DNA of 64,000 bases from Micromonospora sp. WMMD882. GTDB lineage: Bacteria; Actinomycetota; Actinomycetes; Mycobacteriales; Micromonosporaceae. The notes beneath the pieces are model-generated. The model was not told where the DNA came from and searched no databases. It worked only from the letters and a program-made list of their open reading frames with translations. The stretch is taken from positions 1,364,001-1,428,000 of the forward strand of contig NZ_CP114903.1 of the NCBI RefSeq assembly GCF_027497255.1, read 5' to 3'. Made by a program: the position numbers and the translations under genes. Of this stretch, positions 40,738 through 63,483 are shown piece by piece. The first letter of the stretch is position 1, and each line of letters starts with the position of its first letter.

Positions 40738-40739
40738 GC

Positions 40740-47042: not shown

Positions 47043-48236
47043 ATGAGGCAGCATGAGCCGGTCGGCGTGGAAACGCTCCCACAGCGGCTGATCGACGCCC
47101 CCGCCGCCCCCACCCACTGCCGACCCCACCTCGTCGAGCGGGCCCGACTCCAGTGGCACACCACCGACGGCGGCGACCCCGCCCGCCTCGCCCAGGACTT
47201 CCTCACCGCCCACGGCCTGCCCGTCACCGACCTCGCCCGCCCCGCCCACCACCACCCCACCGGCGTCTGCGGCGCGTCCCTGTATCTCTCCGCCGCCGCC
47301 GGCGCCCACCTGACCGGCGCCCCACCCGGCCCACCCACACCCGTACCCACGCTGCCCGACCTCGTCGTGATCGTCTACCACCACGGCCGACCCCCCATCC
47401 CACCGGCCGACCCGCCGCCCCGCCCGTGGCGGCTCGGCCCCTGGCAGCCCAGCTGGACCCCCACCGCGCACGCCGCCGCCGTCGACACCGTCCGCGCCGC
47501 CATCGGCCGCGGCGACGTCTACCAGGTCAACCTCGTCGGACACGCCACCGCACCACACACCGGCGACCCCCTGCCCGCCCTCACCCGCCTCGGCGCGCTG
47601 CCCGGCGCCCGCTACGGCGGCACCCTGCACGGCGACGGCTGGGCCATCGGCTGCGCCTCCCCGGAAACCCTCGTCGCCGTCCACGCCGGCCGCGCCGTCA
47701 CCCGCCCCATCAAAGGCACCCGCCCCGCCACCGGCCAGGGCCACCGCGACCTGCTCGCCTCCGCGAAGGAACGCGCCGAACACATCATGATCGTCGACCT
47801 GGAACGCCACGACCTCGGCCGCATCGCCCGCACCGGCACCGTCCACGTCGACGAGCTGTTCACCGTCCGCCGCTGGTGCGACCTGTGGCAGGCCGAATCC
47901 AGCATCTCCGCCGCCGTCGCCGACGGCCTCGGCCTGGCCGACCTGCTACGCGCCGTCTGCCCCGGCGGCTCCGTCACCGGCGCCCCCAAAATCGCCGCCC
48001 TACGCCACATCGCCGCCGCCGAACCCGTCGGCCGGGGCGCCAGCATGGGCGCCCTCGGCTGGATCGGCGCCGGCCACCTCGACCTCGGCCTGACCATCCG
48101 CACCGCCGCCGCCGACCCCCACCGGCTGCACCTGTGGGCCGGCGGCGGCATCACCTGGGACAGCGACCCCACCGCCGAGGTCGCCGAAGCCGCCGCCAAA
48201 GCCGCCCCGCTACGCGCCGCCCTCACCGGCCACTGA
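47043..48236 (+). CDS. pabB: aminodeoxychorismate synthase component I
   Basis: 397 residues. The chorismate-binding domain occupies about 135-390: TRPIKGTRPATG, LLASAKERAEHIMIVDLERH, SVTGAPKIAALRHIAAAE and the closing WAGGGITWDSDP. It converts chorismate with glutamine-derived ammonia to aminodeoxychorismate for folate. The glutaminase subunit (PabA) is not adjacent. From here the + strand becomes very C-rich. ATG 47043 is taken; GTG 47067 is possible. Confidence 0.88.
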   Translation: MRQHEPVGVETLPQRLIDAPAAPTHCRPHLVERARLQWHTTDGGDPARLAQDFLTAHGLPVTDLARPAHHHPTGVCGASLYLSAAAGAHLTGAPPGPPTPVPTLPDLVVIVYHHGRPPIPPADPPPRPWRLGPWQPSWTPTAHAAAVDTVRAAIGRGDVYQVNLVGHATAPHTGDPLPALTRLGALPGARYGGTLHGDGWAIGCASPETLVAVHAGRAVTRPIKGTRPATGQGHRDLLASAKERAEHIMIVDLERHDLGRIARTGTVHVDELFTVRRWCDLWQAESSISAAVADGLGLADLLRAVCPGGSVTGAPKIAALRHIAAAEPVGRGASMGALGWIGAGHLDLGLTIRTAAADPHRLHLWAGGGITWDSDPTAEVAEAAAKAAPLRAALTGH

Positions 48237-48248
48237 CCACCACCCCCT

Positions 48249-49244
48249 TCACCCCCCGGCGAACCCGTCCACCGCGGCTACCACCGCCTCGGCCATCCCC
48301 GGCCCACCCGAGCCGTGCCCGGCCGCCTCCACCACCACCAACCGCGCCTCCGGCCACGCCCGCGCCAACCGCCACGCCCCCTCCAACGGAGTGGACACGT
48401 CCCACCGGCCGTGCACCAGCACCCCCGCAATCCCCGCCAACCGCGACGCCCCCCGCAACAACTGCCCCTCGTCGAGAAAACACCCGTGCCGCCAGTAGTG
48501 CGTCACCAACCGCGCGAACACCATCCGGAACCCCGCGTCAGCGAACCGAGGATCCGGCCCCCGTCCCGGCACCGTCGCCACATGCGTGTCCTCCCACGCG
48601 CACCACCGCCGGGCCGCCCGCTCCCGCACCACCGGATCCGGATCCACCAGCAACCGCGCGTACGCGTCGGCCAGACAACCGTCCCGGTCCGCCACCGGCG
48701 CCCCCGCCCGAAACCGCGCCCACTGCTCCGGAAACACCCGCCCCATGTCCCGCAGGATCCACTCCACGTCCCGCCGCTCACCCAACGTCACACTGAACAA
48801 CACCAGCTCCGACACCCGATCCGGATGCCGCTGCGCGTACGCCAACGCCAACGTGCTGCCCCACGACGCCCCCAACACCAACCACCGCCGCACCCCCAGG
48901 TGCTCCCGCAGCCGCTCCAGATCCGCCACCAGACGACCCGTCGTGTTCGTCGACAGATCCACCCCCGGATCCCCGGCGCCCGGCGTGGACCGCCCACACC
49001 CCCGCTGATCCAGGAACACGATCCGGTACCGGGCCGGATCGAAGAACCGCGCCCACCCCGGCGAACACCCCGACCCCGGACCACCATGCACCACCACCGC
49101 CGGCTTACCGTCCGGATTCCCACCCACCTGCCAGAACACCCGCTGACCGTCACCGACGTCGAGCATCCCCCCGGCATGCGCCCGCATCTGTGGATACACC
49201 ACGACCCCCTCACCCGGTCCACCACGAACACGACCCACCACCAT
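48249..49244 (-). CDS. pip: prolyl aminopeptidase (alpha/beta hydrolase, S33)
   Basis: 331 residues. HGGPGSGCSPGWARFFDPAR, LDQRGCGRSTP and the nucleophile LGASWGSTLALAYAQ mark the proline iminopeptidase family; catalytic Asp and His lie in WDVSTPLEG and EAAGHGSGG. It removes N-terminal proline. Upstream it is divergent from a TetR gene (88 bases). Its minus-strand sequence is G-rich, reflecting the C-rich + strand. Confidence 0.93.
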   Translation of the reverse strand: MVVGRVRGGPGEGVVVYPQMRAHAGGMLDVGDGQRVFWQVGGNPDGKPAVVVHGGPGSGCSPGWARFFDPARYRIVFLDQRGCGRSTPGAGDPGVDLSTNTTGRLVADLERLREHLGVRRWLVLGASWGSTLALAYAQRHPDRVSELVLFSVTLGERRDVEWILRDMGRVFPEQWARFRAGAPVADRDGCLADAYARLLVDPDPVVRERAARRWCAWEDTHVATVPGRGPDPRFADAGFRMVFARLVTHYWRHGCFLDEGQLLRGASRLAGIAGVLVHGRWDVSTPLEGAWRLARAWPEARLVVVEAAGHGSGGPGMAEAVVAAVDGFAGG

Positions 49245-49332
49245 CACCCACCACCGGCCACCCCGGCCACCCCCTTTCCCCACCCACCCGACCGGCGTAC
49301 GCCGTACGAACCGGCCGCTAGGGTGAACCACG

Positions 49333-50127
49333 ATGACCACCGAGTACAGCGGCACCGGCGACCCCGCCCGCAGCCTCGCCCTGCTCTGGCGCACCCGCGA
49401 ACGCCCCCACCGCAAAGGCCGCACCGACCTCACCGTCGACCGCATCGTCCACGCCGCCATCACCCTCGCCGACACCGACGGCCTGCCGGCCCTGTCCATG
49501 CGCCGCGTCGCCGAACACCTCGGCGTCGGCACCATGAGCCTCTACACCCACATCCCCGGCAAAGGCGAACTCCTCGACGTCATGCTCGACACCGTCCACG
49601 GCGAACCCGACCCCGAACCCACCCCACCCGACGCCGACTGGCGCGCCCGACTGGCCGCCATCGCCCGCAACGCCTGGGCCCGCTACCTACGCCACCCCTG
49701 GCTGCTGCAGGTCGCCACCACCCGCCCACCCCTGGGCCCCCACGTCATCGCCCGCTACGAACACGACCTACGCGCCGTCGACGGCCTCGGCCTCACCGAC
49801 CTCGAAATGGACGCCGTCGTCACCCTCGTCCACGGCTACGTCCACGGCGCCGTCCGCGGCGCCGTCGAAGCCGCCCAGGCCGCCCGCCACACCGGCATGA
49901 CCGACGACCAGTGGTGGCACGCCCACGCCCCCTACCTGGAAAAAGTCCTCGACGCCCGACGCTGGCCCACCGCCGCCCGCGTCGGCGCCGCCGCCGGCCA
50001 GGAATACGGCGCCGCCACCGACCCCACCCGCGCCTTCACCTTCGGCCTCGACCGTATCCTCGACGGCGTCACCACCCTCGTCGCCGCCCGCCGACCCACC
50101 CCGCCACCCAACGCCACCGACGACTAA
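49333..50127 (+). CDS. TetR-family transcriptional regulator
   Basis: 264 residues. HTH at residues 36-80: LTVDRIVHAAITLADTDGLP, MRRVAEHLGVGTMSLYTHIP. The C-terminal domain (residues 100-230) has the helical form of the tetracycline-repressor C-terminal family. It lies divergent from pip and just before def, so it may regulate either. Ligand unknown. Confidence 0.92.
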   Translation: MTTEYSGTGDPARSLALLWRTRERPHRKGRTDLTVDRIVHAAITLADTDGLPALSMRRVAEHLGVGTMSLYTHIPGKGELLDVMLDTVHGEPDPEPTPPDADWRARLAAIARNAWARYLRHPWLLQVATTRPPLGPHVIARYEHDLRAVDGLGLTDLEMDAVVTLVHGYVHGAVRGAVEAAQAARHTGMTDDQWWHAHAPYLEKVLDARRWPTAARVGAAAGQEYGAATDPTRAFTFGLDRILDGVTTLVAARRPTPPPNATDD

Positions 50128-50136
50128 CCTGCCGCC

Positions 50137-50640
50137 ATGACCATGCGCCCCATCCGGATCATCGGCGACCCCGTCCTGCGCACCCCCTGCCAACCGGTCA
50201 CCCACTTCGACGACGCCCTACGCGCCCTGGTCACCGACCTGATGGACACCCTCCTCGGCGCCCCCGGCCGCGCCGGCGTCGCCGCCCCCCAGATCGGCGT
50301 CGACGCCCAGGTGTTCGTCTACGACGCCGACGGCCACCGCGGCCACCTGATCAACCCCACCCTCGAACTGTCCACCGAGCTCGACCACGACGACGAGGGC
50401 TGCCTGTCCATCCCCGGCCTGTACTTCCCGACCCCCCGCGCCCGCCACGCCACCGCCCACGGCTTCGACCAGCACGGCCAACCCCGCACCGTCACCGGCA
50501 CCGGATTCCTCGCCCGCGCCCTGCAACACGAAACCGACCACCTCGCCGGCACCCTCTACGTCGACACCCTCCGCGGCGACACCCGCCGCCGCGCCCTGCG
50601 CGACATCCGCGCCGGCCGCTACGACTCACCCCGCCGCTGA
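50137..50640 (+). CDS. def: peptide deformylase
   Basis: 167 residues with all three metal-site motifs: GVAAPQIG, EGCLSIPGL and QHETDHLAG. It removes the formyl group from new proteins. ATG 50137 or 50143. It starts 9 bases after the TetR stop and overlaps the end of the convergent GNAT gene by 15 bases. This is probably one of two or more deformylases in the genome. Confidence 0.95.
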   Translation: MTMRPIRIIGDPVLRTPCQPVTHFDDALRALVTDLMDTLLGAPGRAGVAAPQIGVDAQVFVYDADGHRGHLINPTLELSTELDHDDEGCLSIPGLYFPTPRARHATAHGFDQHGQPRTVTGTGFLARALQHETDHLAGTLYVDTLRGDTRRRALRDIRAGRYDSPRR

Positions 50641-51417
50641 CCCACCCCACGCCGACAACGTCGTCTCCTCGTACCCGGCCACCACCGTGAACCCCAACCG
50701 CCCGTACAACCGCAACGCCACCGCGTTGTCCGCCCGCACGTTCAACACCACATGACCCACACTCGCCCGTAACCGCCCACACAGCCGCGCCAGCACCGCC
50801 GCCGCCAACCCCCGCCCCCGCCACCGCGGATGCGTCGCCACGTTCCCCACCGCCGCCACCCCGTACCCCGGCGACCACACGTGCACCCCCGCCACCGCCA
50901 CCAGCTCCCCACCGCGCCGCAACCCCACGTACGGCCCCGCCGCCAACATCCCCGGATCGAACCAGTTACCCGGATACGCCACCGCGTACAACGCCACCAA
51001 CTCCGGCAGATCCGCCACCGTCAACGCCACCCCCTCCGGCCGCACCCCCGCCAACCGGCCCGGATCCGTCAACGCCAACCTCCGGTGCGCCACCACCGGC
51101 CCCACCCGCACCACCCCACCCACCGCCGCCGCCACACCGGGGGACAGGTGCGCGTGCACCCGCGCCGGCAACACCGGCGCCGCCCCCACCAACACCTCCG
51201 CCAACGCGCCCACCCGCTCCGGCCGCGCCAACGCCACCACCGTCGCCGGAACCACCCCGTGGAACATCAACACCACCTCGTCCCCACCCCGCCACCACGT
51301 CGTGAACGGCCACCACACATCATCAAGATCACCCAACTGGTACGCGTGCAACACCGGATCCCGCCCCAACAAACCCGCCAACACCCCCCGGTCATGCTCC
51401 GCCCGCACCCCCACCAC
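50626..51417 (-). CDS. GNAT-family N-acetyltransferase
   Basis: 263 residues. The acetyl-CoA motif GNVATHPRWRGRGLAAAVLA lies near residue 205, followed by VVLNVRADNAVALRLYGRLG and FTVVAGYEET. The N-terminal half (about 130 residues) is a second, degenerate GNAT-like fold, as seen in two-domain GNAT proteins. Acceptor unknown. The GTG start directly follows the TauE stop codon (no gap), so the pair is coupled. Confidence 0.87.
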   Translation of the reverse strand: MVGVRAEHDRGVLAGLLGRDPVLHAYQLGDLDDVWWPFTTWWRGGDEVVLMFHGVVPATVVALARPERVGALAEVLVGAAPVLPARVHAHLSPGVAAAVGGVVRVGPVVAHRRLALTDPGRLAGVRPEGVALTVADLPELVALYAVAYPGNWFDPGMLAAGPYVGLRRGGELVAVAGVHVWSPGYGVAAVGNVATHPRWRGRGLAAAVLARLCGRLRASVGHVVLNVRADNAVALRLYGRLGFTVVAGYEETTLSAWGGSAAG

Positions 51418-52200
51418 TCACCCCACCACCCACTGGTCGTAACCCAACCGCGCCACCAACGCGCACACCACCACCAACAACACCACCCGCACGAAACCCG
51501 CGCCCCGCCGCACCGCCATCCGCGCCCCCACCACCGCCCCCACCACGTTGCACACCGCCATCGCCAACCCCAACCACCACCACACGTGCCCACTCACCCC
51601 GAACACCACCAACGCCCCCAGATTCGTCCCCGCGTTCACCACCTTCGCCATCGCCGAACCCCGCACGAAATCCGCCCCCACCAACACCGTGAACGCCACC
51701 ACCAGAAACGTCCCCGTACCCGGACCCACCAACCCGTCGTACAACGCGATCACCCCACCCGCCACCACCACCGCCACCACCACCCGCGCCCGGGTCCGCC
51801 GACCCGGTGCCGCCACCACCCCCAACCTCGGCCGCGCCACCACGAACACCGCCACCCCCACCAACACCACCAACACCACCGGCCGGTACGCCTGCCCCGG
51901 CACCAAACCCGCCAACGCCGCCCCCACCCCGGCCACCACCACCGCCAGCACCGCCGACGGACCCGCCACCGCCCAATCCACCCCCGTACGCCGCGCATAC
52001 GTCACCGCCGCCGTCGACGTCCCCGCGATCGCCGCCAACTTGTTCGTCCCCAACGCCGTCGCCACCGGCAACCCCGGCGCCGCCACCAGCAACGCCGGCA
52101 ACAACACCAGACCACCCCCACCCACCACCGCGTCCACCCAGCCCGCCAGCACGGCCACCGTCAACAACGTCACCACAGAACCCGCATCCACGGGCCGCAT
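51418..52200 (-). CDS. TSUP-family anion transporter (TauE/SafE type)
   Basis: 260 residues with about eight membrane spans. The family N-terminus LTVAVLAGWVDAVVGGGG is followed by LLVAAPGLPVATALGTNKLA, and the second half has LYDGLVGPGTGTFLVVAFTV. These proteins export or import sulfite, sulfonates or similar anions. Valine and glycine are unusually frequent because the coding strand is G-rich here. ATG 52200. Confidence 0.92.
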   Translation of the reverse strand: MRPVDAGSVVTLLTVAVLAGWVDAVVGGGGLVLLPALLVAAPGLPVATALGTNKLAAIAGTSTAAVTYARRTGVDWAVAGPSAVLAVVVAGVGAALAGLVPGQAYRPVVLVVLVGVAVFVVARPRLGVVAAPGRRTRARVVVAVVVAGGVIALYDGLVGPGTGTFLVVAFTVLVGADFVRGSAMAKVVNAGTNLGALVVFGVSGHVWWWLGLAMAVCNVVGAVVGARMAVRRGAGFVRVVLLVVVCALVARLGYDQWVVG

Positions 52201-52360
52201 TCTGCCCACCCACCCCACCCCTGACCCGCCCCCTGTGGCCAGCCTCACCGCCGCCGCCGCAACCCCCACCCCACCCACGCCACCACCACGAACACCACCA
52301 CCAGACAGCACCACACCTTGATCATCAGGTAACCCTCCCACGCCCACGTATGGTGCAGAA

Positions 52361-53140
52361 ATGCGCCTGGCCACCTTCAACCTCCTGCACGGCCGCTCCC
52401 TCGCCGACGGCCTCGTCGACCCCGACCGGCTCACCGCCGCCGTCACCGCCCTCGACGCCGACGTCCTCGCCCTACAGGAAGTCGACCGCGACCAGTCCCG
52501 CAGCGGCCACCACGACCTCACCGCCATCGCCGCCCGCGCCCTGCACGCCCCCGAACACCGCTTCGCCGCCGCCGTCGTCGGCACCCCCGGCCACCAGTTC
52601 CGCCCCCTCACCCACGACGACGACGGCCACGGCGAACCCTGCTACGGCGTCGGCCTCGTCAGCCGATACCCCGCCCGCACCTGGCAGGTCACCCGCCTAC
52701 GCCCCGCCCCACTACGCTCCCCGGTCCTCATCCCCGGCCCCGGCGGCGGACTCGTCCTGCTCCGCGACGAACCCCGCGTCCTACTCGCCGCCGTCCTCGA
52801 CACCCCCCACGGACCCCTCACCGCCGCCGCCACCCACCTGTCCTTCGTCCCCGGCTGGAACGCCCGCCAACTACGCCAAGCCATCCGCGCCCTACGCACC
52901 CTGCCCGCCCCCCGCATCCTCCTCGGCGACCTCAACCTGCCCACCACCCCCACCCGACTCCTCACCGGCTGGCAACCCCTCGGCCGACGCCCCACCTACC
53001 CCGCAGCCCAACCCCGCATCCAACTCGACCACATCCTCGCCGACCCCCACGACGCCCACCGCCTCCCACCCGTCACCGCCGTCACCACCCCACTGTCCAC
53101 CATCTCCGACCACCGCCCCCTCGTCGTCGACCTCGGCTGA
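52361..53140 (+). CDS. endonuclease/exonuclease/phosphatase-family hydrolase
   Basis: 259 residues: start LATFNLLHGRSLADG, catalytic Glu in LALQEVDRDQS, LLGDLNLPTTP and the closing SDHRPLVVDLG. These are the conserved Asn, Glu, Asp and His of the EEP fold, which cleaves phosphodiesters (DNA, lipid head groups or nucleotides). No signal peptide, so cytoplasmic. Substrate not predictable. ATG 52361 follows CCACGTATGGTGCAGAA. Confidence 0.9.
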   Translation: MRLATFNLLHGRSLADGLVDPDRLTAAVTALDADVLALQEVDRDQSRSGHHDLTAIAARALHAPEHRFAAAVVGTPGHQFRPLTHDDDGHGEPCYGVGLVSRYPARTWQVTRLRPAPLRSPVLIPGPGGGLVLLRDEPRVLLAAVLDTPHGPLTAAATHLSFVPGWNARQLRQAIRALRTLPAPRILLGDLNLPTTPTRLLTGWQPLGRRPTYPAAQPRIQLDHILADPHDAHRLPPVTAVTTPLSTISDHRPLVVDLG

Positions 53141-53208
53141 ACCCCACCATTGACACACCACACTCCATTGGAGATCGTCGGACCACCAGCCACCCCACAG
53201 GAGGACCG

Positions 53209-54756
53209 GTGCCCGACCACCCCCACCCCACCCGACGACACCGCTACCTCATCATCGGCGCCGGACCCTCCGGCCTCCAACTCAGCTACTACCTCCAGCA
53301 GACCGGCAGCGACTACCTCACCATCGAACGCGCCCCCGCCCCCGCCGAATTCTTCCGCCACTTCCCCCGCCACCGCCGCCTCATCTCCCTCAACAAAACC
53401 CACACCACCAGCGACGACCCCGAAATCAAACTCCGCTGGGACTGGAACTCACTCCTCCACGAACCCGCCGACCTGCCCTTCCCCCACTACAGCCACGACT
53501 ACTTCCCCCACGCCGACGACATGGTCCGCTACCTCACCGACTTCCACCACCACCACAAACTCAACATCCAGTTCGACACCCCCGCCCACCACATCGACCG
53601 CACCCCCCACGGCTTCACCGTCCACACCGACCACCACACCATCCACGCCCAATGCCTCATCGTCGCCACCGGCTGGGGCCACCCCCACATCCCCGACATC
53701 CCCGGCATCGAACACGCCACCGGCTACGAAACCATGTCCACCGACCCCACCCACTACACCAACCACCGCGTCCTCATCCTCGGCAAAGGCAACTCCGCCT
53801 TCGAAACCGCCTCCGCCCTCCTCGGCCACGCCGCCATGATCCACCTCGCCAGCCCCCGCCCCCTCCGCCTCGCCTGGAACACCAAACACCCAGGCGACGT
53901 CCGCGGCCACCACGGCGCCGTCCTCGACAGCTACCAGTTCAAAACCCTCCACTCCGTCCTCGACTGCGTCATCGACGACATCCGCCCCCTCGACAACCGC
54001 TACCAGGTCCACCTCACCTACACCCACGCCGACAACGAAACCGCCGTCATGGAATACGACACCGTCCTCCGCTGCACCGGCTTCACCATGGACACCACCC
54101 CCTTCACCCCCCACACCCGACCCCACCTCGCCCCCAACCGCCGCATGCCCGCCACCACACCCGACTGGCAATCCACCAACATCGACGGCCTCTACTTCGC
54201 CGGCACCATCGCCCAGGACCACGACTTCAAACGCGCCTCCTCCGCCTTCATCGACGGGTTCCGCTACAACCTCCGCACCCTCACCCACCTGCTCCGCGAA
54301 CGCTACGACAACCAACCCCTACCCCACACCCACCACCAACCCGACCCCGACACCCTCACCACCCTCATCCTCGACCGCGTCAACTGGAGCTCCGCCCTCT
54401 GGACCCAGTTCGAATACCTCTCCGACGCCATCGTCATCGACCCCGACAAACCCGCCCGCCACTACCAGGACCTACCCGAAAACCACATCCGCCAACGCTT
54501 CCAACACCACCCCTACTACTACACGATCAGCCTCCGCTGGGGCCGCGACCCCCACCCCGACGTCTTCCACATCCGCCGCCACCCCCAACCCGACCGCGCC
54601 GCCGAAAGCGCCTTCATCCACCCCGTCATCCGCCGCTACCACGGCCCCAACCTCACCGACGAACTCCACCTCCTCGAAGACCTCCTCGCCGAATGGCGCC
54701 GCCCCGACCGCCACATCACCCCCCTCCACACCTGGCTCACCACACACCTCACCTGA
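53209..54756 (+). CDS. FAD-dependent NAD(P)-binding oxidoreductase (FOXRED2-like)
   Basis: 515 residues. FAD motif YLIIGAGPSGLQLSYYLQ near residue 14, then CLIVATGWG, the second dinucleotide fold LILGKGNSAFETASALLG near residue 195, and LYFAGTIAQDHDFKRASSAF. The layout is that of pyridine nucleotide-disulfide oxidoreductase/FMO-related proteins without the CxxC redox pair. Substrate unknown. His, Thr and Pro are strongly enriched by the C-rich codon bias. GTG 53209 follows AGGAGG. Confidence 0.88.
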   Translation: MPDHPHPTRRHRYLIIGAGPSGLQLSYYLQQTGSDYLTIERAPAPAEFFRHFPRHRRLISLNKTHTTSDDPEIKLRWDWNSLLHEPADLPFPHYSHDYFPHADDMVRYLTDFHHHHKLNIQFDTPAHHIDRTPHGFTVHTDHHTIHAQCLIVATGWGHPHIPDIPGIEHATGYETMSTDPTHYTNHRVLILGKGNSAFETASALLGHAAMIHLASPRPLRLAWNTKHPGDVRGHHGAVLDSYQFKTLHSVLDCVIDDIRPLDNRYQVHLTYTHADNETAVMEYDTVLRCTGFTMDTTPFTPHTRPHLAPNRRMPATTPDWQSTNIDGLYFAGTIAQDHDFKRASSAFIDGFRYNLRTLTHLLRERYDNQPLPHTHHQPDPDTLTTLILDRVNWSSALWTQFEYLSDAIVIDPDKPARHYQDLPENHIRQRFQHHPYYYTISLRWGRDPHPDVFHIRRHPQPDRAAESAFIHPVIRRYHGPNLTDELHLLEDLLAEWRRPDRHITPLHTWLTTHLT

Positions 54757-55407
54757 TCACCGCCACACCAACACCTCCTCCAACGGCTTCCGCCCCACAT
54801 CCGGCACCCACGCATCCTCCGCCGGAAACCCCACCGGCATCACCACGAACGGACGCTCCTCCGGCGGACGCCCACACACCTCATTCAAAAACCGCATCGG
54901 ACTCGGCGTATGCGTCAACGTCACCAACCCCGCCAGATGCAACGCCGTCACCAACACCCCCACCGCCATCCCCACCGACTCCTTCACGTAATACGGCTTC
55001 GGCGACCGCGGCCCCTGATGCACCTCGAACACCACGATCACCACCGGCGCCACCTCCAGAAACGGCTTACGCCAATCCGTCCCCAACGGCGCCAACGCCT
55101 CCAACCACCCCGACGACGCCCGACGCCCGTAAAACTCCCGCTCCTCCGCCTCCGCCGCCTCCCGCAACCGCCGCTTCCGCTCCACATCCGTCACCACCAC
55201 GAACCGCCACGGCTGCACATTCGCCCCCGACGGCGCCGACGCCGCCGCCCGCACCGCCTCCTCCACCACCCCCAACGGCACCGGATCCGCCGAAAAATGA
55301 CGCACCGAACGCCGCACCACCACCCGATCCGCGAAACCCCGCGCCACCCCCACCATCTCCGCCGCCGACAACCGACCACCCCCAGAACCCACCAACCGAC
55401 CCACCAC
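54757..55407 (-). CDS. nitroreductase-family protein
   Basis: 216 residues. FMN contacts: RRSVRHFSADPV, ASAPSGANVQPWRFVVV and GVLVTALHLAGL, then PVGFPAEDAWVPDV. An FMN- and NAD(P)H-dependent reductase of the nitroreductase superfamily; some members dehalogenate tyrosines or reduce quinones. It is convergent with the FAD oxidoreductase, the stops being directly adjacent, and divergent from the GCS2 gene. GTG 55407 follows AGGGAG. Confidence 0.9.
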   Translation of the reverse strand: MVGRLVGSGGGRLSAAEMVGVARGFADRVVVRRSVRHFSADPVPLGVVEEAVRAAASAPSGANVQPWRFVVVTDVERKRRLREAAEAEEREFYGRRASSGWLEALAPLGTDWRKPFLEVAPVVIVVFEVHQGPRSPKPYYVKESVGMAVGVLVTALHLAGLVTLTHTPSPMRFLNEVCGRPPEERPFVVMPVGFPAEDAWVPDVGRKPLEEVLVWR

Positions 55408-55569
55408 ACACTCCCTTCACCCAAGACCACGACAGCCAACCCGCCGCGACCCCACCAGCCTCCCCCCACCACCACCCCCACCCCTAACGCCAAAAAGCCC
55501 AACCCCCACCACACCCTCCACACCCGACAACCACCACACCCCCACACCCCCACACAGGAGAAACACCCG

Positions 55570-56685
55570 GTGCCCCCACCCACCACCGCCCCCCGCATCG
55601 GCGTCGAAGAAGAATTCCTCGTCATCGACCCCACCACCGGAACCACCACCCCCCACGCCACCACCATCATCAACCACGCCACCCCCCACCTCGGCACCCG
55701 CGTCTCCGGCGAAATCACCACCCTCCACATCGAAACCCGCACCAACCCCACCACCTCCACCACCCAACTCCTCCACGAACTCCTCGACGCCCGCACCACC
55801 ATCGCCCACGCCGCCACCACCAACGGACTCCACGTCATCCCCACCGGCACCCCCATCCAACCCGGCGCCGTACCCCCACCCATCACCCCCGGCCCCCGCC
55901 AAGACCACGGCACCGCCACCTACCGCGCCCTCCACGACGAACTCGCCATCTGCGCCGCCCACATCCACGTCGAAATACCCGACACCGAACACGCCCTCTA
56001 CGTCAGCAACCACCTCCGCCCCCACCTACCCCTCCTCATCGCCCTCACCGCCAACTCACCCCACTGGGAAGGCCGCGACACCGGCTACGCAAGCTGGCGC
56101 ACCATGACCTGGACCCGCTGGCCCAACGCCGGCCCCCCACCCCACTTCACCTCCCTCACCCACTACCACCACACCATCCACACCCTCACCACCGCCGGCG
56201 CCCTCGTCGACCCCGCCACCCTCTTCTGGGACATCCGCCCCTCACCCACCCACCCCACCCTCGAAATCCGCGCCGCCGACGTCCCCATCACCGCCACCGA
56301 AACCGCCACCCTCGCCGCCATCGTCCGCGCCCTCACCACCCACGCCACCCACGCCATCCACCACGGCGACCACGGCCCCGACACCCCCACCGAAACCCTC
56401 CGCGCCGCCTACTGGCGCGCCGCCCGAGACGGACTCGACGGCCACCTACTCGACCCCCACACCCACCAACTACGCCCCGCCCACCACATCCTCACCGACC
56501 TCATCGACCACCTCACCCCCACCCTCCACGCCCACGACGACCACCACCTCGTCACCACCACCATCAAGCACCTCACCACCACCGGCACCGGCGCCACCCG
56601 CCAACGACACGCCGCCCGTCAACACGGCAACCTCACCGACGTCACCACCTACCTCGCCAACCACCTCACCGCCACCCACCCCTGA
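55570..56685 (+). CDS. glutamate-cysteine ligase-type carboxylate-amine ligase (GCS2/YbdK)
   Basis: 371 residues, start RIGVEEEFLVIDPTTG, the GCS2 signature. Also HVIPTGT, AAHIHVEIPDTEHAL (HxHxE), NSPHWEGRDTGYASWRTM and DIRPSPTHPTLEIRAADVP. This ATP-grasp-like glutamine synthetase fold joins an amine to a carboxylate, typically Glu plus Cys; the actual substrate in mycothiol-users is uncertain. GTG 55570 has CAGGAG upstream. The sequence is exceptionally rich in His, Thr and Pro from the C-biased strand. Confidence 0.9.
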   Translation: MPPPTTAPRIGVEEEFLVIDPTTGTTTPHATTIINHATPHLGTRVSGEITTLHIETRTNPTTSTTQLLHELLDARTTIAHAATTNGLHVIPTGTPIQPGAVPPPITPGPRQDHGTATYRALHDELAICAAHIHVEIPDTEHALYVSNHLRPHLPLLIALTANSPHWEGRDTGYASWRTMTWTRWPNAGPPPHFTSLTHYHHTIHTLTTAGALVDPATLFWDIRPSPTHPTLEIRAADVPITATETATLAAIVRALTTHATHAIHHGDHGPDTPTETLRAAYWRAARDGLDGHLLDPHTHQLRPAHHILTDLIDHLTPTLHAHDDHHLVTTTIKHLTTTGTGATRQRHAARQHGNLTDVTTYLANHLTATHP

Positions 56686-56757
56686 GACCCCACCACACCC
56701 ACACATCCCGCACGATCGCGACAGACCCCGCACCCCACCCACTGACACCATCGCCCC

Positions 56758-58032
56758 ATGGCCGACACCACGCACCTACGACACCGCGCCCACGCCCACA
56801 CCGACCTGCTCACCACCCGACTCCGACAACTCGTCGAACACGAAACCCCACCCGGCCACACCACCGCCCTCACCACCTGCGCCGACCTCCTCCACACCTG
56901 GGGAACCGCCGCCCTGCGCCGACCCCCCCGACACATCCACCGCGACGGACCACCCCACCTCCTCTGGGCCGCCGAAGACCAACGCGTCCTCCTCCTCGGC
57001 CACTACGACACCGTCTGGCCCGCCGGCACCATCCACGACTGGCCCTTCACCACCAACGGCCACACCGCCACCGGCCCCGGCATCTGCGACATGAAAGCCG
57101 GCATCGTCCAGATGCTCACCGCACTCGAACTGACCACCGACCCCACCCACATCGGCGTCCTGCTCACCAGCGACGAAGAAAGCGGCTCACCCACCTCCCG
57201 CGCCCTCATCGAAGAACAAGCCAGCCGATCCGCCGCCGTCCTCGTCCTCGAACCCAGCACCGAAACCGGCGACCTCAAAATCGCCCGAAAAGGCGGATCC
57301 GCCTACCAGATCCACATCCACGGCCGCGCCGCCCACGCCGGCGTCGAACCCCACCGAGGCATCAACGCCGCCGTCGAACTCGCCCACCAGATCCTCACCA
57401 TCCGCGACCACAACACCCCCGACACCACCGTCACCCCCACCGCCCTCACCGCCGGAACCATGTCCAACGTCGTCCCCGAAACCGCCACCCTCACCGTCGA
57501 CGTACGCGCCTGGACCCCCCACGAACTCCACCGCGTCGACACCCTCCTGCACAACCTCCGCCCCCACCTACCCGGCGCCACCCTCACCGTCACCGGCGGC
57601 ATCAACCGCAACCCCCTCACCGACACCCTCTCCCGCCCACTCCTGCGCCTCGCCCAGGACGCCGCCACCCAACTCGGCCTACCCCCCATCCACGGCGCCC
57701 ACGTCGCCGGCGCCTCCGACGCCAACTTCACCGGCGGCCTCGGCGTACCCACCCTCGACGGCCTCGGCGCAGTCGGTGGCCTACCCCACGCCCGCGGCGA
57801 ATGGATCGACCTCACCCGCATGCCCGAACGCGCCGCCCTGCTCGCCCTCATGCTCGAACACCTCACCACCACACCCCACGCCACCACCACCAACCCGCCT
57901 GACCTCACCCCACCAACCCCGCCAACACCCGATGCGTACGGTTCGACCGCACCGCCGCCCGCTGCTGACCCGCCGTCACCTCGATGTACGACTGCGACGA
58001 CGACAACGACGCATGCCCCAGCAACCGCATGA
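56758..58032 (+). CDS. M20-family metallopeptidase
   Basis: 424 residues. Metal site: LGHYDTVWPAG (H, D), GPGICDMKAGIVQML (D), SDEESGSPTS (Glu catalytic and metal); dimerisation domain follows and the last metal histidine is in GGLPHARGEWIDL near residue 345. The M20 domain ends near residue 375. The final 50 residues read through the convergent recombinase gene (128-base overlap) and are low-complexity, so the natural stop may be altered or the tail is non-functional. Confidence 0.88.
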   Translation: MADTTHLRHRAHAHTDLLTTRLRQLVEHETPPGHTTALTTCADLLHTWGTAALRRPPRHIHRDGPPHLLWAAEDQRVLLLGHYDTVWPAGTIHDWPFTTNGHTATGPGICDMKAGIVQMLTALELTTDPTHIGVLLTSDEESGSPTSRALIEEQASRSAAVLVLEPSTETGDLKIARKGGSAYQIHIHGRAAHAGVEPHRGINAAVELAHQILTIRDHNTPDTTVTPTALTAGTMSNVVPETATLTVDVRAWTPHELHRVDTLLHNLRPHLPGATLTVTGGINRNPLTDTLSRPLLRLAQDAATQLGLPPIHGAHVAGASDANFTGGLGVPTLDGLGAVGGLPHARGEWIDLTRMPERAALLALMLEHLTTTPHATTTNPPDLTPPTPPTPDAYGSTAPPPAADPPSPRCTTATTTTTHAPATA

Positions 58033-58894
58033 TCTCCGCCGCGCTCGCCCCGTCCTCGGCCAACCGCGTCGCGAACGTGTGCCGCAACGCGTGCAACCGC
58101 GCGCCCACCGGCACCCGATCGGTGACCCCTGCCCGCCGGTAACACGAATCCACCAGATACTGCAGCCCGCCACGGCGCAACGGCTCACCCCGACGGTCCA
58201 CCAGCAACGCCGAGTCCGGCCGTACCGAACGCCTACCGAACCGCCGCGCCCGGCTCTCCAGGTAGGCCACCAGCACCTCGTCCAACTCCGGCTCCACCGG
58301 CACCACCCGCGGCCGGCCACCCTTGCCCGCCACGTCCACCCGCCGCTCACCGGGCCGACCGGCCACACTCGCCACCCGTAACGCCAGCAGCTCCGACAGT
58401 CGCAGCCCCGTGCACAACGCCAGCGCCAGGACGGCCACGTCCCGCTCCGGCCACGGGTCGTGCTGCCGACCGGCGCCCTGCGCCACGGCGGCGAGCAGCC
58501 GCTCCGGGGTGTCCTCCCCGCGTAGCGGCTTGGGCTGGGGGAGTGGGGCGCGGGGCCGGTCCACCGCCGGCATCGGATTCCCGGCGACCACCCCCTCCGC
58601 CACCAGGTACGTGAAGAAGTTGTTCCAGGTGGACCAGGCCCGGTGCACCGACGCCGCCGCGCGGGGAGCGGCGTACGCCGCGAACGCGGCCCGCAGCAGC
58701 CGGGGGGAGAGGTCGGTGATCGTCAGGGCGTCCAGGGGGAGGGGAGTGGCCGCCCGTTCCGCCGCCAGGCGCGCCACCCCCACCAGGTCCCGCCGGTACG
58801 CGTCGAGCGTGTGCGGGGACGGCTTGCGGGTGGCCCGGGCGACGAGGAACTCCTCGACGAGCACCAGAAACACACTGTCCACTTTGTCATGCAT
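57905..58894 (-). CDS. tyrosine recombinase (XerC/XerD-like)
   Basis: 329 residues. N-terminal SAM-like core-binding domain (residues 10-110) then the catalytic domain with all six residues visible: Arg in CTGLRLSELLAL, Lys in GKGGRPRVVP, HxxR in LHALRHTFATRL, His in LLGHASLSSSQ and nucleophile Tyr303 in SQSYIEV. Length and domains fit Xer recombinases rather than longer phage integrases. The start at 58894 lies inside a dif-like palindrome; upstream extension is unsupported. A candidate dif is 466 bases upstream. Overlaps the M20 gene end by 128 bases. Confidence 0.93.
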   Translation of the reverse strand: MHDKVDSVFLVLVEEFLVARATRKPSPHTLDAYRRDLVGVARLAAERAATPLPLDALTITDLSPRLLRAAFAAYAAPRAAASVHRAWSTWNNFFTYLVAEGVVAGNPMPAVDRPRAPLPQPKPLRGEDTPERLLAAVAQGAGRQHDPWPERDVAVLALALCTGLRLSELLALRVASVAGRPGERRVDVAGKGGRPRVVPVEPELDEVLVAYLESRARRFGRRSVRPDSALLVDRRGEPLRRGGLQYLVDSCYRRAGVTDRVPVGARLHALRHTFATRLAEDGASAAEIMRLLGHASLSSSQSYIEVTAGQQRAAVRSNRTHRVLAGLVG

Positions 58895-58913
58895 AAGGGT
58901 AATTATGCATGAT
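58886..58913. promoter_or_regulatory. dif-like 11-6-11 palindrome at the recombinase start
   Basis: Arms GTCATGCATAA and TTATGCATGAT around six bases GGGTAA; the inner 10 bases of each arm are exact complements. The CATAA/TTATG core resembles a Xer site. It covers the start codon of the recombinase gene, so it may be an autoregulatory operator, an alternative Xer site, or both. Confidence 0.6.
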
Positions 58914-59359: not shown

Positions 59360-59387
59360 AAATTCGATAATGTACATTATGTCAAGT
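59360..59387. other. dif: candidate chromosomal dif site (XerCD recombination site)
   Basis: Eleven-base arms AAATTCGATAA and TTATGTCAAGT flank the six-base centre TGTACA. The core ATAA, TGTACA, TTATGTCAA is what I recall as the actinobacterial dif consensus; it is a markedly AT-rich island in very GC-rich DNA and coincides with the + strand skew switch. I cannot verify it against aligned sequences. Confidence 0.75.
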
Positions 59388-59417: not shown

Positions 59418-60149
59418 TCAGAGGCCGCCGCCGACGCGCAGCACCGTCCCGGTGGTGTACGACGCGTCCGGTCCCAGCAGCCAGGCGACGGCGGCGGCCA
59501 CCTCGTCGGGTTCACCGGGACGGCCGAGCGGGATGCGGTCGGCGGAGCGGTCGGGTCGGTCCGGCATCCCGGACTGGGCGTGGATGTCGGTGCGGATGAT
59601 GCCGGGCGCGACCGCGTTGACCCGGATGCCGCGCGGGGCGAGCTCCTTGGCCAGGCCGATGGTGAGGGTGTCGGTGGCGGCCTTGCTGGCGGCGTAGTGG
59701 ATGTACTCCCCCGGGCTGCCGAGGGTGGCGGCGACCGAGGAGACGTTGACGATTGCCGATCCGGCTGCCATCCGGCGGGCGGCCTGTTGGGCGCAGAGCA
59801 GGTAGCCGACGATGTTGACGTCGACGACCTGGCGGATGTCGTCGACGGCGAGGTCGACGAAGGGGCCGATCGGGCTGGTGACGCCGGCGTTGTTGACCAG
59901 GCCGGTGATCGGGCCGAGAGTCTGGGTGGCGGTGTCGAACAGGTGGGTGACCTGGTCGGGTTCGCGGGTGTCGGTGGGCAGGGCGATGCCGTGGCGTCCG
60001 GCGGCGTGGATGTCGGCGAGCACCGCGGTGGCGGCGGCGTGGTCGCGTCGGTAGCACAGGGCGATGTCGTGGCCGGCGTGGGCGAGTCTGCGGGCGGTGG
60101 CGGCGCCGATGCCGCGTGCGCCGCCGGTGATGACGGTTACCGGTGCCAC
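59418..60149 (-). CDS. SDR-family oxidoreductase (FabG-like)
   Basis: 243 residues. TGGARGIGAATARRL, NNAGVTSPIGP, the catalytic Ser and YAASK (Tyr and Lys), and AVAPGIIRTDI are the classical SDR motifs. 3-Oxoacyl-ACP reductases of this type are typical, but the substrate is unspecified. GTG 60149 follows GAGAGGA. The gene sits beside dif and is unrelated to recombination on present evidence. Confidence 0.93.
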   Translation of the reverse strand: MAPVTVITGGARGIGAATARRLAHAGHDIALCYRRDHAAATAVLADIHAAGRHGIALPTDTREPDQVTHLFDTATQTLGPITGLVNNAGVTSPIGPFVDLAVDDIRQVVDVNIVGYLLCAQQAARRMAAGSAIVNVSSVAATLGSPGEYIHYAASKAATDTLTIGLAKELAPRGIRVNAVAPGIIRTDIHAQSGMPDRPDRSADRIPLGRPGEPDEVAAAVAWLLGPDASYTTGTVLRVGGGL

Positions 60150-60291
60150 GGTGTCCTCTCCCCCGGTCGGTGGTCGTGTCGGGGAGGTTACCGGCGTGGT
60201 CGGGTGGGGGTGGTCCCCCGGCGGGTGGGGTGTCGGGGCGGGCTGGTATCAAGGCAGGGAAATCAGACAGATGTTCGGAAATGAGGTTGGC

Positions 60292-61005
60292 ATGGGTGCC
60301 GAGGGCCAGGGTTTGTCCACTGACGAGGTGCAGGGCATCCGGGAGGCGTTGGCGGCGGGGCGGAAGCCGAGGGTGGTGTTCACGGCGTCGGCGGGGCAGG
60401 TGGCCGGTCAGGTGGGTCAGGTGGTGGAGTTGACGGATCCGGCGGTGTCGGACGAGTTCGTGGTGGTGCGGTTCGGGCGGGACGAGTTGCCCTTCTCCCC
60501 TGCCGATGTGGCGGTGGCGCCGCGGGGTGTGGGGCGGCGGGTGAAGGCGGAGCCGGAGCCGGAGGTGGCGCCGGTGGTGGAGGTGGCGCCGGTGGAGCCG
60601 GAGTTCGTGTTGGAGCGTCCGGTGTCGCGGGTCGAGGAGTCGGGTGGGCAGGGGGCGCGGCGGGAGGAGCCGAAGGTGGGGTCCGGGGAGGCGCGGCCGG
60701 CGCGGCGGCCGGTGAAGGCGGTGAAGGCGAAGGGGCCGTCGGGTCTGGTGGTGACGTTGCAGTACGCCGAGGGTGAGTGGACGGTGGCGGCGCAGCAGGG
60801 CAGTCGGTCGTTGGCGAAGCCGTACGTGGTGCGGCCGGCGGAGGCGTTGCGGATGGTGGCGTTGGTGGATGTGCCGGGGGTGCAGGAGGCGGTGGAGCAG
60901 ATTCTGGCGGCGGAGCGGGCTGAGGCGGAGCAGCAGGCGGAGAAGTTGCGGGCGGAGTTGGCGGAGATCGAGGCGCGGTTGGCGGAGTTGCGCGAGGCGG
61001 GTTGA
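60292..61005 (+). CDS. conserved-looking protein of unknown function, coiled-coil C-terminus
   Basis: 237 residues from ATG 60292 (GAGGTT at 60283); ATG 60271 is an alternative. Residues 5-75 form an N-terminal domain (LSTDEVQGIREALAAGRKPR, GQVAGQVGQVVEL) with a beta-barrel-like pattern; 76-145 is a Pro/Glu/Arg-rich linker; 145-195 a second small domain (VVTLQYAEGEWTVAAQQGS, SLAKPYVVRPAEAL); 200-237 a coiled coil (AERAEAEQQAEKLRAELAE). I do not recognise the family. Basic linker could contact nucleic acid. Ends at a strong shared terminator. Confidence 0.75.
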   Translation: MGAEGQGLSTDEVQGIREALAAGRKPRVVFTASAGQVAGQVGQVVELTDPAVSDEFVVVRFGRDELPFSPADVAVAPRGVGRRVKAEPEPEVAPVVEVAPVEPEFVLERPVSRVEESGGQGARREEPKVGSGEARPARRPVKAVKAKGPSGLVVTLQYAEGEWTVAAQQGSRSLAKPYVVRPAEALRMVALVDVPGVQEAVEQILAAERAEAEQQAEKLRAELAEIEARLAELREAG

Positions 61006-61026
61006 GGTTGTTCGGGTGGGTGGGGT

Positions 61027-61054
61027 GTGGCGCGGGGCGTTCGCTCCGCGCCAC
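61027..61054. terminator. bidirectional terminator between the coiled-coil gene and cydB
   Basis: Stem GTGGCGCGG / CCGCGCCAC (9 bp, perfect) extended inward by a G-T and two G-C pairs with a 4-base loop GTTC. It lies 22 bases after the + strand stop and six bases from the cydB stop on the other strand. Confidence 0.65.
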
Positions 61055-61059
61055 GGGTG

Positions 61060-62058
61060 TCAGTGGGTGGGGATGTGGGTGATGCCGATGCGGTGGCGGA
61101 AGACCCAGTAGGTCCAGCCCTGGTAGGTCAGGACGACGGGGGTGAAGAGGGCGGCGACCCAGGTCATGATGCCGAGGGTGTAGGAGGTGGAGGCGGCGTT
61201 GGTGGCGGTGAGGGTGCCGGCGGGGTCGGTGGTGGAGGGTAGGAGGGTGGGGTGGAGGGCGGTGAAGAGGGTGGCGGTGGTGAGGGCGATGGCGGTGGCG
61301 GTGGCGGTGAAGGCCCAGCCTTCGCGGCGGGCGCGGGTGGCGGTGAGGGCGGTGAGTAGGGCTGCGGTGGCGGTGGCGGCGAGGATGGTGGCGGTGGTGT
61401 TGCCGCGGATGGTGAGGGTCCAGGTGAGGAAGGCTGCGGTGGAGATGGTGGTGAGGGTGGCGAGGCGGGTGGCGAGGGTGCGGGCGCGGTGGCGGATGTC
61501 GCCGGTGGTCTTGAGGGCGGTGAAGACGGCGCCGTGGGTGAGGAAGAGGGTGGTGGTGGTGAGGCCGCCGAGGAGGGCGTAGGGGGTGAGGAGGTCGAGG
61601 AGGGTGCCGGTGTGGTCGTGGTGGTTGTTGAGGGGTACGCCGCGGAGGATGTTGGCGAAGGTGATGCCCCAGAGGAGGGCGGGGGTGAGGCTGCCGATGG
61701 TGATGGCGGTGTCCCAGCGGCGTTTCCAGGTGGTGTCGGGGCGTTTGTGGCGGTATTCGAAGGCGACGCCGCGGATGATGAGGGCGAGGAGGATGAGGAG
61801 GAGGGGTAGGTAGAAGCCGGAGAAGAGGGTGGCGTACCACTCGGGGAAGGCGGCGAACATGGCGCCGGCGGCGGTGATGAGCCAGACTTCGTTGCCGTCC
61901 CAGACGGGTCCGATGGTGTTGATCATGACTCGGCGTTCGCGGTCGTCGTGGGCGAGGAGGGGTAGGAGCGCGCCGACGCCGAAGTCGAAGCCTTCGAGGA
62001 TGAAGTAGCCGGTGAAGAGGACGGCGATGAGGACGAACCAGACGGTGGTGAGGTCCAT
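61060..62058 (-). CDS. cydB: cytochrome bd oxidase subunit II
   Basis: 332 residues with about eight membrane spans. N-terminus WFVLIAVLFTGYFILEGFDF and GPVWDGNEVWLITAAGAMFA are the CydB signatures; FPEWYATLFSGFYLPLLLI follows. With CydA it forms the bd-type quinol oxidase, which reduces oxygen at low tension without pumping. Starts 15 bases after the cydA stop. The coding strand is C-rich here, so Thr, His and Ala dominate. Confidence 0.96.
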   Translation of the reverse strand: MDLTTVWFVLIAVLFTGYFILEGFDFGVGALLPLLAHDDRERRVMINTIGPVWDGNEVWLITAAGAMFAAFPEWYATLFSGFYLPLLLILLALIIRGVAFEYRHKRPDTTWKRRWDTAITIGSLTPALLWGITFANILRGVPLNNHHDHTGTLLDLLTPYALLGGLTTTTLFLTHGAVFTALKTTGDIRHRARTLATRLATLTTISTAAFLTWTLTIRGNTTATILAATATAALLTALTATRARREGWAFTATATAIALTTATLFTALHPTLLPSTTDPAGTLTATNAASTSYTLGIMTWVAALFTPVVLTYQGWTYWVFRHRIGITHIPTH

Positions 62059-62073
62059 GGTGGGGCTCCGGGG

Positions 62074-63483
62074 TCAGTAGGCGAAGGCGAGGGGTCGGTC
62101 GGGGTCGTCGGTGTGGTCGGGTGGGTTGGGTTCGTCGGGGGGTAGGCCGGTTTTGGCGTAGCGGATGAGGAGCCGGACTTCGATGACGGCGAGGGTGGCG
62201 TAGACGAGGGTGAAGGCGGTGAAGCTGGTGAGGACTTCGGTGCGGCTGACGGCGCGGGAGACGCCGTCGCGGGTGAGCATTTCGCCGAAGACGATCCAGG
62301 GTTGGCGGCCCATTTCGGTGAAGATCCAGCCGAAGCTGTTGGCGGCGAGTGGGAGCAGGGGCATGGTGAGGCCGGCGCGGAGGAGCCATTTTCCGGTGGG
62401 GGTACGGCCTTTGCGGTGGGCCCAGAGGACCCAGAGGGCGATGGCCGCGGTGGCGAGTCCGAAGCCGATCATCATGCGGAAGCTCCAGTAGGTGACCGGG
62501 ATGATCGGGGTGTAGTTGCCGGGGCCGTACTGGGCGGCGTATTGGGCTTGAAGGTTGTCGATGCCGTGGACGGTGCCGTGTGGGTCGCCGGTGCCGAGGA
62601 CGCTGAGTAGGTAGGGGATTTTGAGGGCGTAGAGCTCGCGGCTTCCGTCGAGGCTGCCGATGGTGAGGACGCTGAGGGCGGCGGGGGTTTCGGTGGTGTA
62701 GAGGCCTTCGGCGGCGGCCATTTTCATGGGTTGGACGTCGGTCATGATTTTGCCTTGGATGTCGCCGGTGACGAGGACGGCGGTGGTGGCGGCGAGGGTG
62801 GTCCAGGCGCCGAAGCGGGCGGCGAAGCGGTAGGTGGGGGTGTCGGGGTGGTGGGGGTGTCGGGTGAGGTGCCAGAGGGCGACGGCGACGATGATGCTGC
62901 CGGCGACGAGGAAGCAGCCGGCGATGGTGTGGGGGAAGGTGACGAGGGCGACTTTGTTGGTGAGGACGGCGAGGAAGTCGGTGAGTTCGGCGCGGCCGGT
63001 GTCGGGGTTGATGTGGTAGCCGACGGGGTTCTGCATCCAGGAGTTGGCGGCGAGGATGAAGTAGGCGCTGAGGGTGGAGCCGGTGGCGGCGGCCCAGATG
63101 GTGGCGAGGTGGATGCGTTTGGGGAGGCGGTCCCAGCCGAATATCCAGAGTCCGAGGAAGGTGGATTCGAGGAAGAAGGCGACGAGGGCTTCGATGGCGA
63201 GGGGCGCGCCGAAGATGTCGCCGACGAAGCGGGAGTAGTCGCTCCAGTTCATGCCGAACTGGAATTCCTGGACGATGCCGGTGACGATGCCCATGGCGAA
63301 GTTGATGAGGAAGAGTTTTCCGTAGAATTTGGTGAGTTTGAGGTAGTGCTGGTGGCCGGTGCGGTGCCAGAGGGTCTGGAGGATGGCGACGAGGACGGAC
63401 AGGCCGATGGTGAGTGGGACGAAGAGAAAGTGGTAGACGGTGGTGACACCGAATTGCCAGCGGGCGACGTCCAATGCGTCCAC
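62074..63483 (-). CDS. cydA: cytochrome bd oxidase subunit I
   Basis: 469 residues. Heme-d axial His18 is in TTVYHFLFVPLTIG; the second heme ligand His is in FPHTIAGCFLVAGS. The periplasmic quinol loop is short (GRQPWIVFGEMLTRDGVS), so this is a short-Q-loop CydA like those of other actinobacteria. Transcribed with cydB (cydA first). A dyad-rich sequence (63502-63526) lies directly upstream and may regulate the operon. Confidence 0.96.
   Translation of the reverse strand: MDALDVARWQFGVTTVYHFLFVPLTIGLSVLVAILQTLWHRTGHQHYLKLTKFYGKLFLINFAMGIVTGIVQEFQFGMNWSDYSRFVGDIFGAPLAIEALVAFFLESTFLGLWIFGWDRLPKRIHLATIWAAATGSTLSAYFILAANSWMQNPVGYHINPDTGRAELTDFLAVLTNKVALVTFPHTIAGCFLVAGSIIVAVALWHLTRHPHHPDTPTYRFAARFGAWTTLAATTAVLVTGDIQGKIMTDVQPMKMAAAEGLYTTETPAALSVLTIGSLDGSRELYALKIPYLLSVLGTGDPHGTVHGIDNLQAQYAAQYGPGNYTPIIPVTYWSFRMMIGFGLATAAIALWVLWAHRKGRTPTGKWLLRAGLTMPLLPLAANSFGWIFTEMGRQPWIVFGEMLTRDGVSRAVSRTEVLTSFTAFTLVYATLAVIEVRLLIRYAKTGLPPDEPNPPDHTDDPDRPLAFAY

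Follow-up and report, generated by a model that had tools for sequence, protein, structure and literature searches.

The dif site is a textbook recombination site, which two recombinases serve. According to the accessible part of the corresponding report, the XerS/difSL system of streptococci relies on a single recombinase that adjoins its site (PMC5357621), and in Lactobacillus helveticus XerS occurs besides XerCD with xerS near the skew shift-point, no dif being reported for either in the available excerpt (PMC3025954). The existence of dif in Actinobacteria is already known, as excerpts of two studies indicate (PMC3025954, PMC3364876). Extracts from further reports describe fork-fusion over-replication in the termination area of E. 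coli recG mutants (PMC4999828), the polar motifs KOPS (PMC3269016) and AIMS (PMC5993296), which direct FtsK to dif, and elements that integrate at dif (PMC9765430).

In the DNA analysed here (the window, a stretch of 64,000 nucleotides corresponding to bases 1,364,001-1,428,000 of a Micromonospora genome that forms a single contig of 6,366,961 bp) a dif site is accompanied by a further Xer-type recombinase gene and by a second Xer-type site at the start of that gene. The locus comprises the following features, given in window coordinates:

59360..59387, + strand: dif, 11-6-11 with centre TGTACA, sequence AAATTCGATAATGTACATTATGTCAAGT
57905..58894, - strand: XerM (the label used in this report), Xer-type tyrosine recombinase of 329 aa with a conserved ATG at 58894
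58887..58912, no strand assigned: second Xer-type site, 10-bp perfect arms TCATGCATAA/TTATGCATGA round a 6-bp centre
59418..60149, - strand: SDR-family oxidoreductase gene, adjoining dif
61060-62058, - strand: cydB
62074-63483, - strand: cydA, named by its place beside cydB and by sequence, not by a family-library match

The dif site and the recombinase gene beside it

Positions 59360-59387 are very likely the chromosome-dimer resolution site dif, located at the replication terminus of the Micromonospora chromosome. Counted by hand, this 28-mer is identical at 23 of 28 positions with dif of Frankia alni (PMC3025954) and equally at 23/28 with dif of Actinoplanes SE50/110 (PMC3364876), both as given in the available parts of these papers. 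The 22-bp core of the site, searched with up to 3 mismatches, was found once in the whole 6.37-Mb genome, the one copy that the original prediction had anticipated, and the reversed core pattern, taken as control, had 0 matches in the whole genome; thus the match at 59360-59387 exceeds chance. Among 61 genomes a dif match was present in 51, namely in all 37 of the genus and in 14 of the 24 that represent other families of the order; conservation in relatives, which had been named beforehand as a check, is evident from the one copy in each genome of the genus, and a duplicated dif was absent from all 37, the own genome included. The sole DnaA-domain match in the genome lies at 4,494,454-4,494,936 (gene 4,493,920-4,495,866), and its distance from dif is 3.07 Mb, or 48% of the chromosome. 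According to these data the assignment as a dif-type XerCD site holds, since the site matches published actinobacterial dif, is unique and conserved and lies opposite dnaA, and the reading of the window as the replication terminus is supported.

An actinobacterial dif consensus was also tried as a search pattern and gave 0 matches within 3 mismatches, because it constrains the flanks, and the flanks differ here. In one genome from another family of the order (G038) two dif-type matches were noticed, at G038:C1:345305 and G038:C3:156273. When plasmid records were searched, all hits among the matches listed (20 of 218) fell on the SDR part of the query.

The XerM gene, 0.5 kb from dif, encodes a protein with the domains Phage_integrase (PF00589) and Phage_int_SAM_1 (PF02899), whose closest solved relative is XerD (PDB chain 1a0p, E 3e-22). 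Its scores lie below the equivalog cut-offs of the XerC model (170 bits, cut-off 335) and the XerD model (146 bits, cut-off 330), and below that of the XerS model as well (73 bits, cut-off 267). The catalytic set R-K-H-R-H-Y is complete in the window protein (R, K, H-x-x-R, H, Y), and each of its positions is retained in at least 71 of the 72 aligned XerM proteins of the window and its relatives (L104, too short, was omitted) and in 19 of 19 homologues from a second family, f15, which we take to be Pseudonocardiaceae. Searches were run with queries starting at codon 3 (58888), and the nearest named relatives were found in Micromonospora, with Salinispora. Besides XerM the genome contains seven further Phage_integrase matches. 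The XerD candidate (L003) reaches 309 bits to the XerD model and exceeds the cut-off of the broader PRK00283 subfamily, the XerC candidate (L004) reaches 288 bits to the XerC model, and both stay below the XerC/XerD equivalog cut-offs. XerM is a third Xer-type recombinase, besides these XerC and XerD candidates elsewhere. The XerC candidate (L004:775-2001) carries a long low-complexity insert ahead of its catalytic domain, and a further tyrosine recombinase gene (L005, G000:C1:1441990-1442517; 333 aa) lies 18.6 kb from dif.

The linkage of dif and xerM was followed through 73 loci, which were found via xerM, the informative part being the presence of dif; left out of 77 were L070, L105, L106, L111 (5' end missing) and L117 (unrelated). 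The distance between dif and xerM is 289-3142 bp (median 631) in 72 of the 73 loci, window included, and the sole locus without dif nearby is L107 of Actinocrinis puniceicyclus, with a 60% identical XerM homologue on an 8-kb contig. Among these 72 loci dif is oriented one way relative to xerM in 71 and inverted in the window only. The orientation of the window also occurs in G202, G363 and 11 f15 genomes; both orientations thus being in use, that of dif is evidently not essential. In f15, sampled as 19 of 32 genomes with a homologue (one f9 genome, G044, locus L287, whose contig ends beside the gene, was not counted), dif precedes the matched gene start by 329-998 bp in 11 of 19 genomes. Among the 51 relatives for which some 10 kb on either side could be read, the neighbouring SDR gene recurs in 33, cydB in 21 and cydA in 17; four further genes recur in none of the 51.

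The second Xer-type site at the start of xerM

The arms of the second site occupy 58887-58896 and 58903-58912, and the site overlaps the XerM start codon. With inverted arms, a 6-bp asymmetric centre and ATAA/TTAT inner ends it has the make-up of an Xer-type site. Its exact core, TGCATAA-N6-TTATGCA, has a single position in each of 241 genomes of the 354 searched in the family, is missing from 113 and is never found twice, and the reversed pattern used as control was absent from all 354. The exact core is present in 72 of the 73 loci (window + 72) at a constant position relative to xerM. The first base of the centre is T in 72/72 loci and the last base C in 70/72, which makes the centre asymmetric, and the arm bases directly outside the core agree in 39/72. 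Distant members carry altered cores (CGCATAA/TTATGCG in G063, AGCATAA/TTATGCG in G202 and G363) or an imperfect site (G304, G115, G066). One genome of the same genus in 4 contigs, 96% complete (G275), showed no match to the second site, to xerM or to the strict dif pattern.

In f15 an ATAA-N6-TTAT site was found in all 11 genomes that have dif near the gene, so dif, XerM and the second site co-occur in two families. The f15 arms are of one kind in 9 of 11 (TGCATAA/TTATGCA or TGGATAA/TTATCCA) and read TGCATAA/TTATCCA in the other 2. The site lies entirely before the first in-frame start codon in 6 of 11, overlaps one in 3 and is ambiguous in 2, and in G063 and G066 it stands several hundred bp ahead of the open frame; since some f15 sites lie wholly before the start codon, the second site is more than a start-codon feature.

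In the window the site also overlaps a -10-like CATAAT (58907-58902, - strand), which ends 7 nt before the ATG and was one of two 9-of-12 matches in a promoter scan, on the xerM strand. Judged from the sequence, this spacing suggests a leaderless transcript that XerM could repress. Rfam at the gathering threshold gave no match in 57-62 kb. Between xerM and dif (59185-59224) there is a GC-rich perfect 17-bp inverted repeat with a 6-nt loop, which was not among the results of the terminator scan.

Strand bias around the terminus

At the locus the + strand changes from C-rich to G-rich, with skew passing from about -0.56 to +0.45. The original prediction had set this change exactly at dif; the change itself is confirmed, and its position has to be corrected, since the best two-segment change point of the window lies 917 bp away, within the neighbouring recombinase gene XerM. 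The use of the skew as support for a terminus fails, because the sign change is origin-like, the reverse of what a terminus shows when its leading strand is G-rich; judged by cumulative skew, one would have assumed an origin here. In practice, origin finders based on skew could place an origin wrongly at such a locus.

In the own genome (G000) the absolute skew is at most 0.062 in 36 of 40 sampled 20-kb blocks, and the exceptions are the four blocks around dif (1,383,001-1,463,000). In 4-kb bins the strongly skewed zone extends about 40 kb to either side of dif with alternating sign, the + strand being G-rich from -38 to -13 kb, C-rich (to -0.50) from -12 to 0, G-rich (to 0.35) from 0 to +8 kb and C-rich from +28 to +40 kb relative to dif; isolated bins elsewhere reach as far as -0.15, at +130 kb. 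Composition at four-fold sites, for which genes were called by a simple script, delimits these zones in the window:

47043..58032: left inner zone, + strand mostly C with some A at four-fold sites, on either coding strand
59418..63483: right inner zone as far as it lies in the window, + strand G-rich at four-fold sites, from 72% (SDR) to 95% (cydB)
20096..46622: outer zone with the sign reversed, G fraction of four-fold sites on the + strand 0.43-0.81, a mosaic with unbiased genes

Left of the locus, genes on the + strand have 78-94% C, 0-13% G and 0-3% T at four-fold sites, and the nitroreductase gene, which lies on the - strand of the left zone, presents the mirror image (coding strand G 91%, T 9%, C 0, A 0). 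Right of the locus G makes up 95% of four-fold sites on the + strand in cydB and 91% in cydA, and G-rich genes extend to about window coordinate 67157, beyond the window. Codon or gene-orientation bias was rejected as the cause of the skew, because genes of both orientations in one zone share the strand composition; the bias belongs to DNA strands rather than to genes. The XerC and XerD candidate genes elsewhere in the genome have balanced four-fold composition. Some genes within the zones are weakly biased or unbiased, as recent arrivals would be. A distorted base supply near the terminus affects gene evolution there, for example in the composition of an FMO-like protein with 10.5% His and 9.5% Thr.

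Between 46622 and 47043 the four-fold sites turn from G-rich to C-rich abruptly, within 0.5 kb. The outer zones, one at 20-46.6 kb and one beyond the window at +30 to +41 kb to the right of dif, have the sign opposite to the inner zone, and it is possible that they are old inversions or mark earlier dif positions.

The place of the flip was determined by a two-segment fit in the 59 of 73 loci with enough flank. The change point lies a median 375 bp (IQR 358-437) from the second site, within xerM, and its distance from dif covaries with the dif-xerM spacing (Spearman 0.65). Thus in most loci the flip follows XerM rather than dif; in 10 of 59 the change point is more than 1 kb from the second site. 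The mean skew profile is near zero 0.3-0.75 kb before the second site, runs at -0.08 to -0.19 from 150 bp before it through the first 300 bp after it, and then rises sharply to about +0.3 within xerM. That the change point falls inside XerM may in part reflect constrained sequence at the front of this gene.

A relocated gene allows position to be separated from gene identity. From 61 genomes searched for cydA 30 loci were taken, 16 of them with dif on the same contig, and in these 16 readable genomes the coding strand of cydA always points at dif. Its four-fold GC skew on the coding strand is -0.94 at 2.7 kb in the window and -0.27 to -0.32 at 14-22 kb, with a Spearman correlation of 0.78 between skew and distance (p 4e-4, 16 genomes, uncorrected for relatedness) and one outlier, G035, where the bias at 9.4 kb (-0.19) is weaker than the trend. 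Since the bias fades with distance, position and not gene identity appears to set it.

The flip was compared between genomes with and without XerM through R-L, the skew 1.5-6 kb right of dif minus that in the same range left. The null, taken from the own genome only (34 blocks more than 60 kb from dif, 1088 positions), had an s.d. of 0.051 and a maximum of 0.121. In 18 genomes with xerM R-L was 0.15-0.85, and in 23 genomes with dif and without xerM near it was -0.16 to 0.32, with 20 of 23 at or below 0.121 (Mann-Whitney p 7e-8, and 8e-6 against the 12 same-family genomes, relatedness inflating both p-values). Absence of XerM meant no genome match at E <= 1e-40 for the 12 family genomes, and a profile search of the 8 kb on each side of dif that detected no XerM-like ORF near the site in any of the 23, apart from weak edge matches in G340 (76 bits) and G038 (27 bits). 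The three genomes exceeding 0.121 without XerM near dif were G168 (0.18), G048 (0.19) and G162 (0.32); the origin-like flip of the last (L251) has no XerM-like ORF within 8 kb of dif.

All 11 f15 genomes with dif, XerM and the second site had R-L of 0.24-0.73, and the 8 f15 homologues with neither dif nor the site close by had 0.01-0.16, three of them above 0.121 (0.15, 0.16, 0.16); centring was on the start of the XerM match instead of dif in f15, and on the second site in G208. Among dif-bearing genomes the own-genome null is exceeded by 29 of 29 with XerM against 3 of 23 with dif alone. In the named XerM loci, whose species partly overlap the other sample, 54 of 71 had enough flank, and 52 of these 54 exceeded 0.121 (median 0.42). 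Both exceptions belong to Planosporangium (L066 0.07, L093 -0.01); dif, xerM and the exact second site are all present there without a flip, so the trio is not sufficient. A DnaA tree, weakly supported except for some pairs, gave a Fitch count of 5 changes against mostly 6-8 with shuffled labels, and in one of its pairs (bootstrap 93) G337 with XerM has a flip of 0.49 and G340 without XerM -0.06. The association of XerM with the flip is strong.

Proposed reaction, alternatives and known systems

The preferred reading is that dif, XerM and the single-copy Xer-type site of XerM form a conserved terminus module, in which XerM is predicted to recombine sister termini at this site and probably controls its own promoter; the chance that this is right is put at slightly below even. 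In such a module XerM would bind and cut the second site, which in Micromonospora-type loci would double as recombination site and autorepressing operator, and would act there, next to dif, on sister termini. As a less secure step, repeated cutting of strands or the processing of Holliday junctions could then launch DNA synthesis or processing outward from the locus. Outward synthesis would expose the strands running 5' to 3' away from the locus, and on these strands, with GC-biased fixation acting as well, C and A would give way to G and T.

Depletion in C and A is what the strands running 5' to 3' outward display. It would fit cytosine deamination on an exposed outward lagging-strand template, the A that arises opposite being then converted to C by GC-biased fixation. 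The opposite sign would be predicted for the 3' overhang that is left when a break undergoes ordinary 5' resection. The XerM locus may therefore help to cause the strand bias. The full proposal is a tentative one and rather unlikely as it stands: the third Xer system would cause outward synthesis to begin locally at the terminus and would thereby produce the most extreme strand asymmetry of the sampled chromosome, nearly all free G and T having been lost from one strand across some 10 kb to either side.

The strongest rival is fork-fusion over-replication, according to which outward over-replication at the terminus produces the strand bias and XerM is linked without being causal. The sign near dif fits outward forks, and both the two Planosporangium loci with XerM and no flip and the three genomes that flip without XerM are in keeping with it. 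However, forks should fuse in dif genomes without XerM too, yet 20 of 23 of these have no flip; the change point tracks XerM rather than dif in most loci as the spacing varies, and fork fusion alone leaves the association with xerM unexplained. Such an origin of the bias is considered possible, though rather unlikely.

For the second site itself an alternative is that it is an operator and promoter of xerM and nothing else, the recombinase working at dif as a helper of XerC/XerD or a substitute for them. The overlap with the start codon in 72 of 73 loci and the -10-like CATAAT in the window agree with a purely regulatory site, as do the closeness of dif in 72 of 73 loci and the ATAA-N6-TTAT common to both sites. 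A single site per genome is equally expected of an operator alone, and the site overlaps an in-frame ATG in the window and in 3 of 11 f15 genomes. But Xer-type arms are kept where the site lies wholly before the start codon (6 of 11 f15) or far upstream of the frame (G063, G066), and the arms are unlike those of dif, which makes an exclusively regulatory role unlikely.

A mobile element integrated at dif by host recombinases, of which XerM and its site would be what is left, is quite improbable. XerM does score as a divergent tyrosine recombinase, but one gene kept beside dif across two families with its catalytic residues retained is unlike a remnant, and the flanking duplicated dif of an IMEX was not encountered, each of the 37 genomes of the genus having one dif. 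Least probable of all is a selected polarity guiding a DNA pump such as FtsK, of KOPS or AIMS type: the bias is polar about the terminus, but it affects nearly every four-fold site instead of a motif, and its G-rich strands run outward from dif, the reverse of KOPS.

If the reading of dif, XerM and the second site as a terminus module with its own reaction is true, the termini of these bacteria, which cover many genomes in two families, are handled by an additional reaction, and the strand bias is a readable evolutionary footprint of that reaction at the terminus. In the literature searched, mostly non-subscription, the matches listed included nothing on a third Xer gene that lies by dif and has a site of its own in these families and nothing on such local strand bias in them. 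The dif site itself is ordinary, the module surrounding it adds a new form to a familiar type of system, and the strand-bias footprint would surprise a specialist.

In comparison with XerCD/dif, the locus has the same 28-bp dif of actinobacterial type, one per chromosome and opposite dnaA, together with XerC and XerD candidates, and it differs in that dif has next to it a third gene of Xer type and another Xer-type site of greater symmetry. With XerS/difSL, as far as the available part of its description goes, it shares a recombinase gene directly adjoining the terminus site, whereas XerC/XerD candidates and an ordinary dif are present here and the centre measures 6 bp against 11 there. Lactobacillus helveticus, in the excerpt at hand, likewise exceeds the usual pair of Xer genes and has one such gene near the terminus, while here dif and a second site were found with the gene in two families. 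Fork fusion in E. coli, in the accessible portion of that work, offers the parallel that outward synthesis at the terminus would yield an origin-like bias; there it is prominent in mutants, and here a lasting footprint goes together with a recombinase locus.
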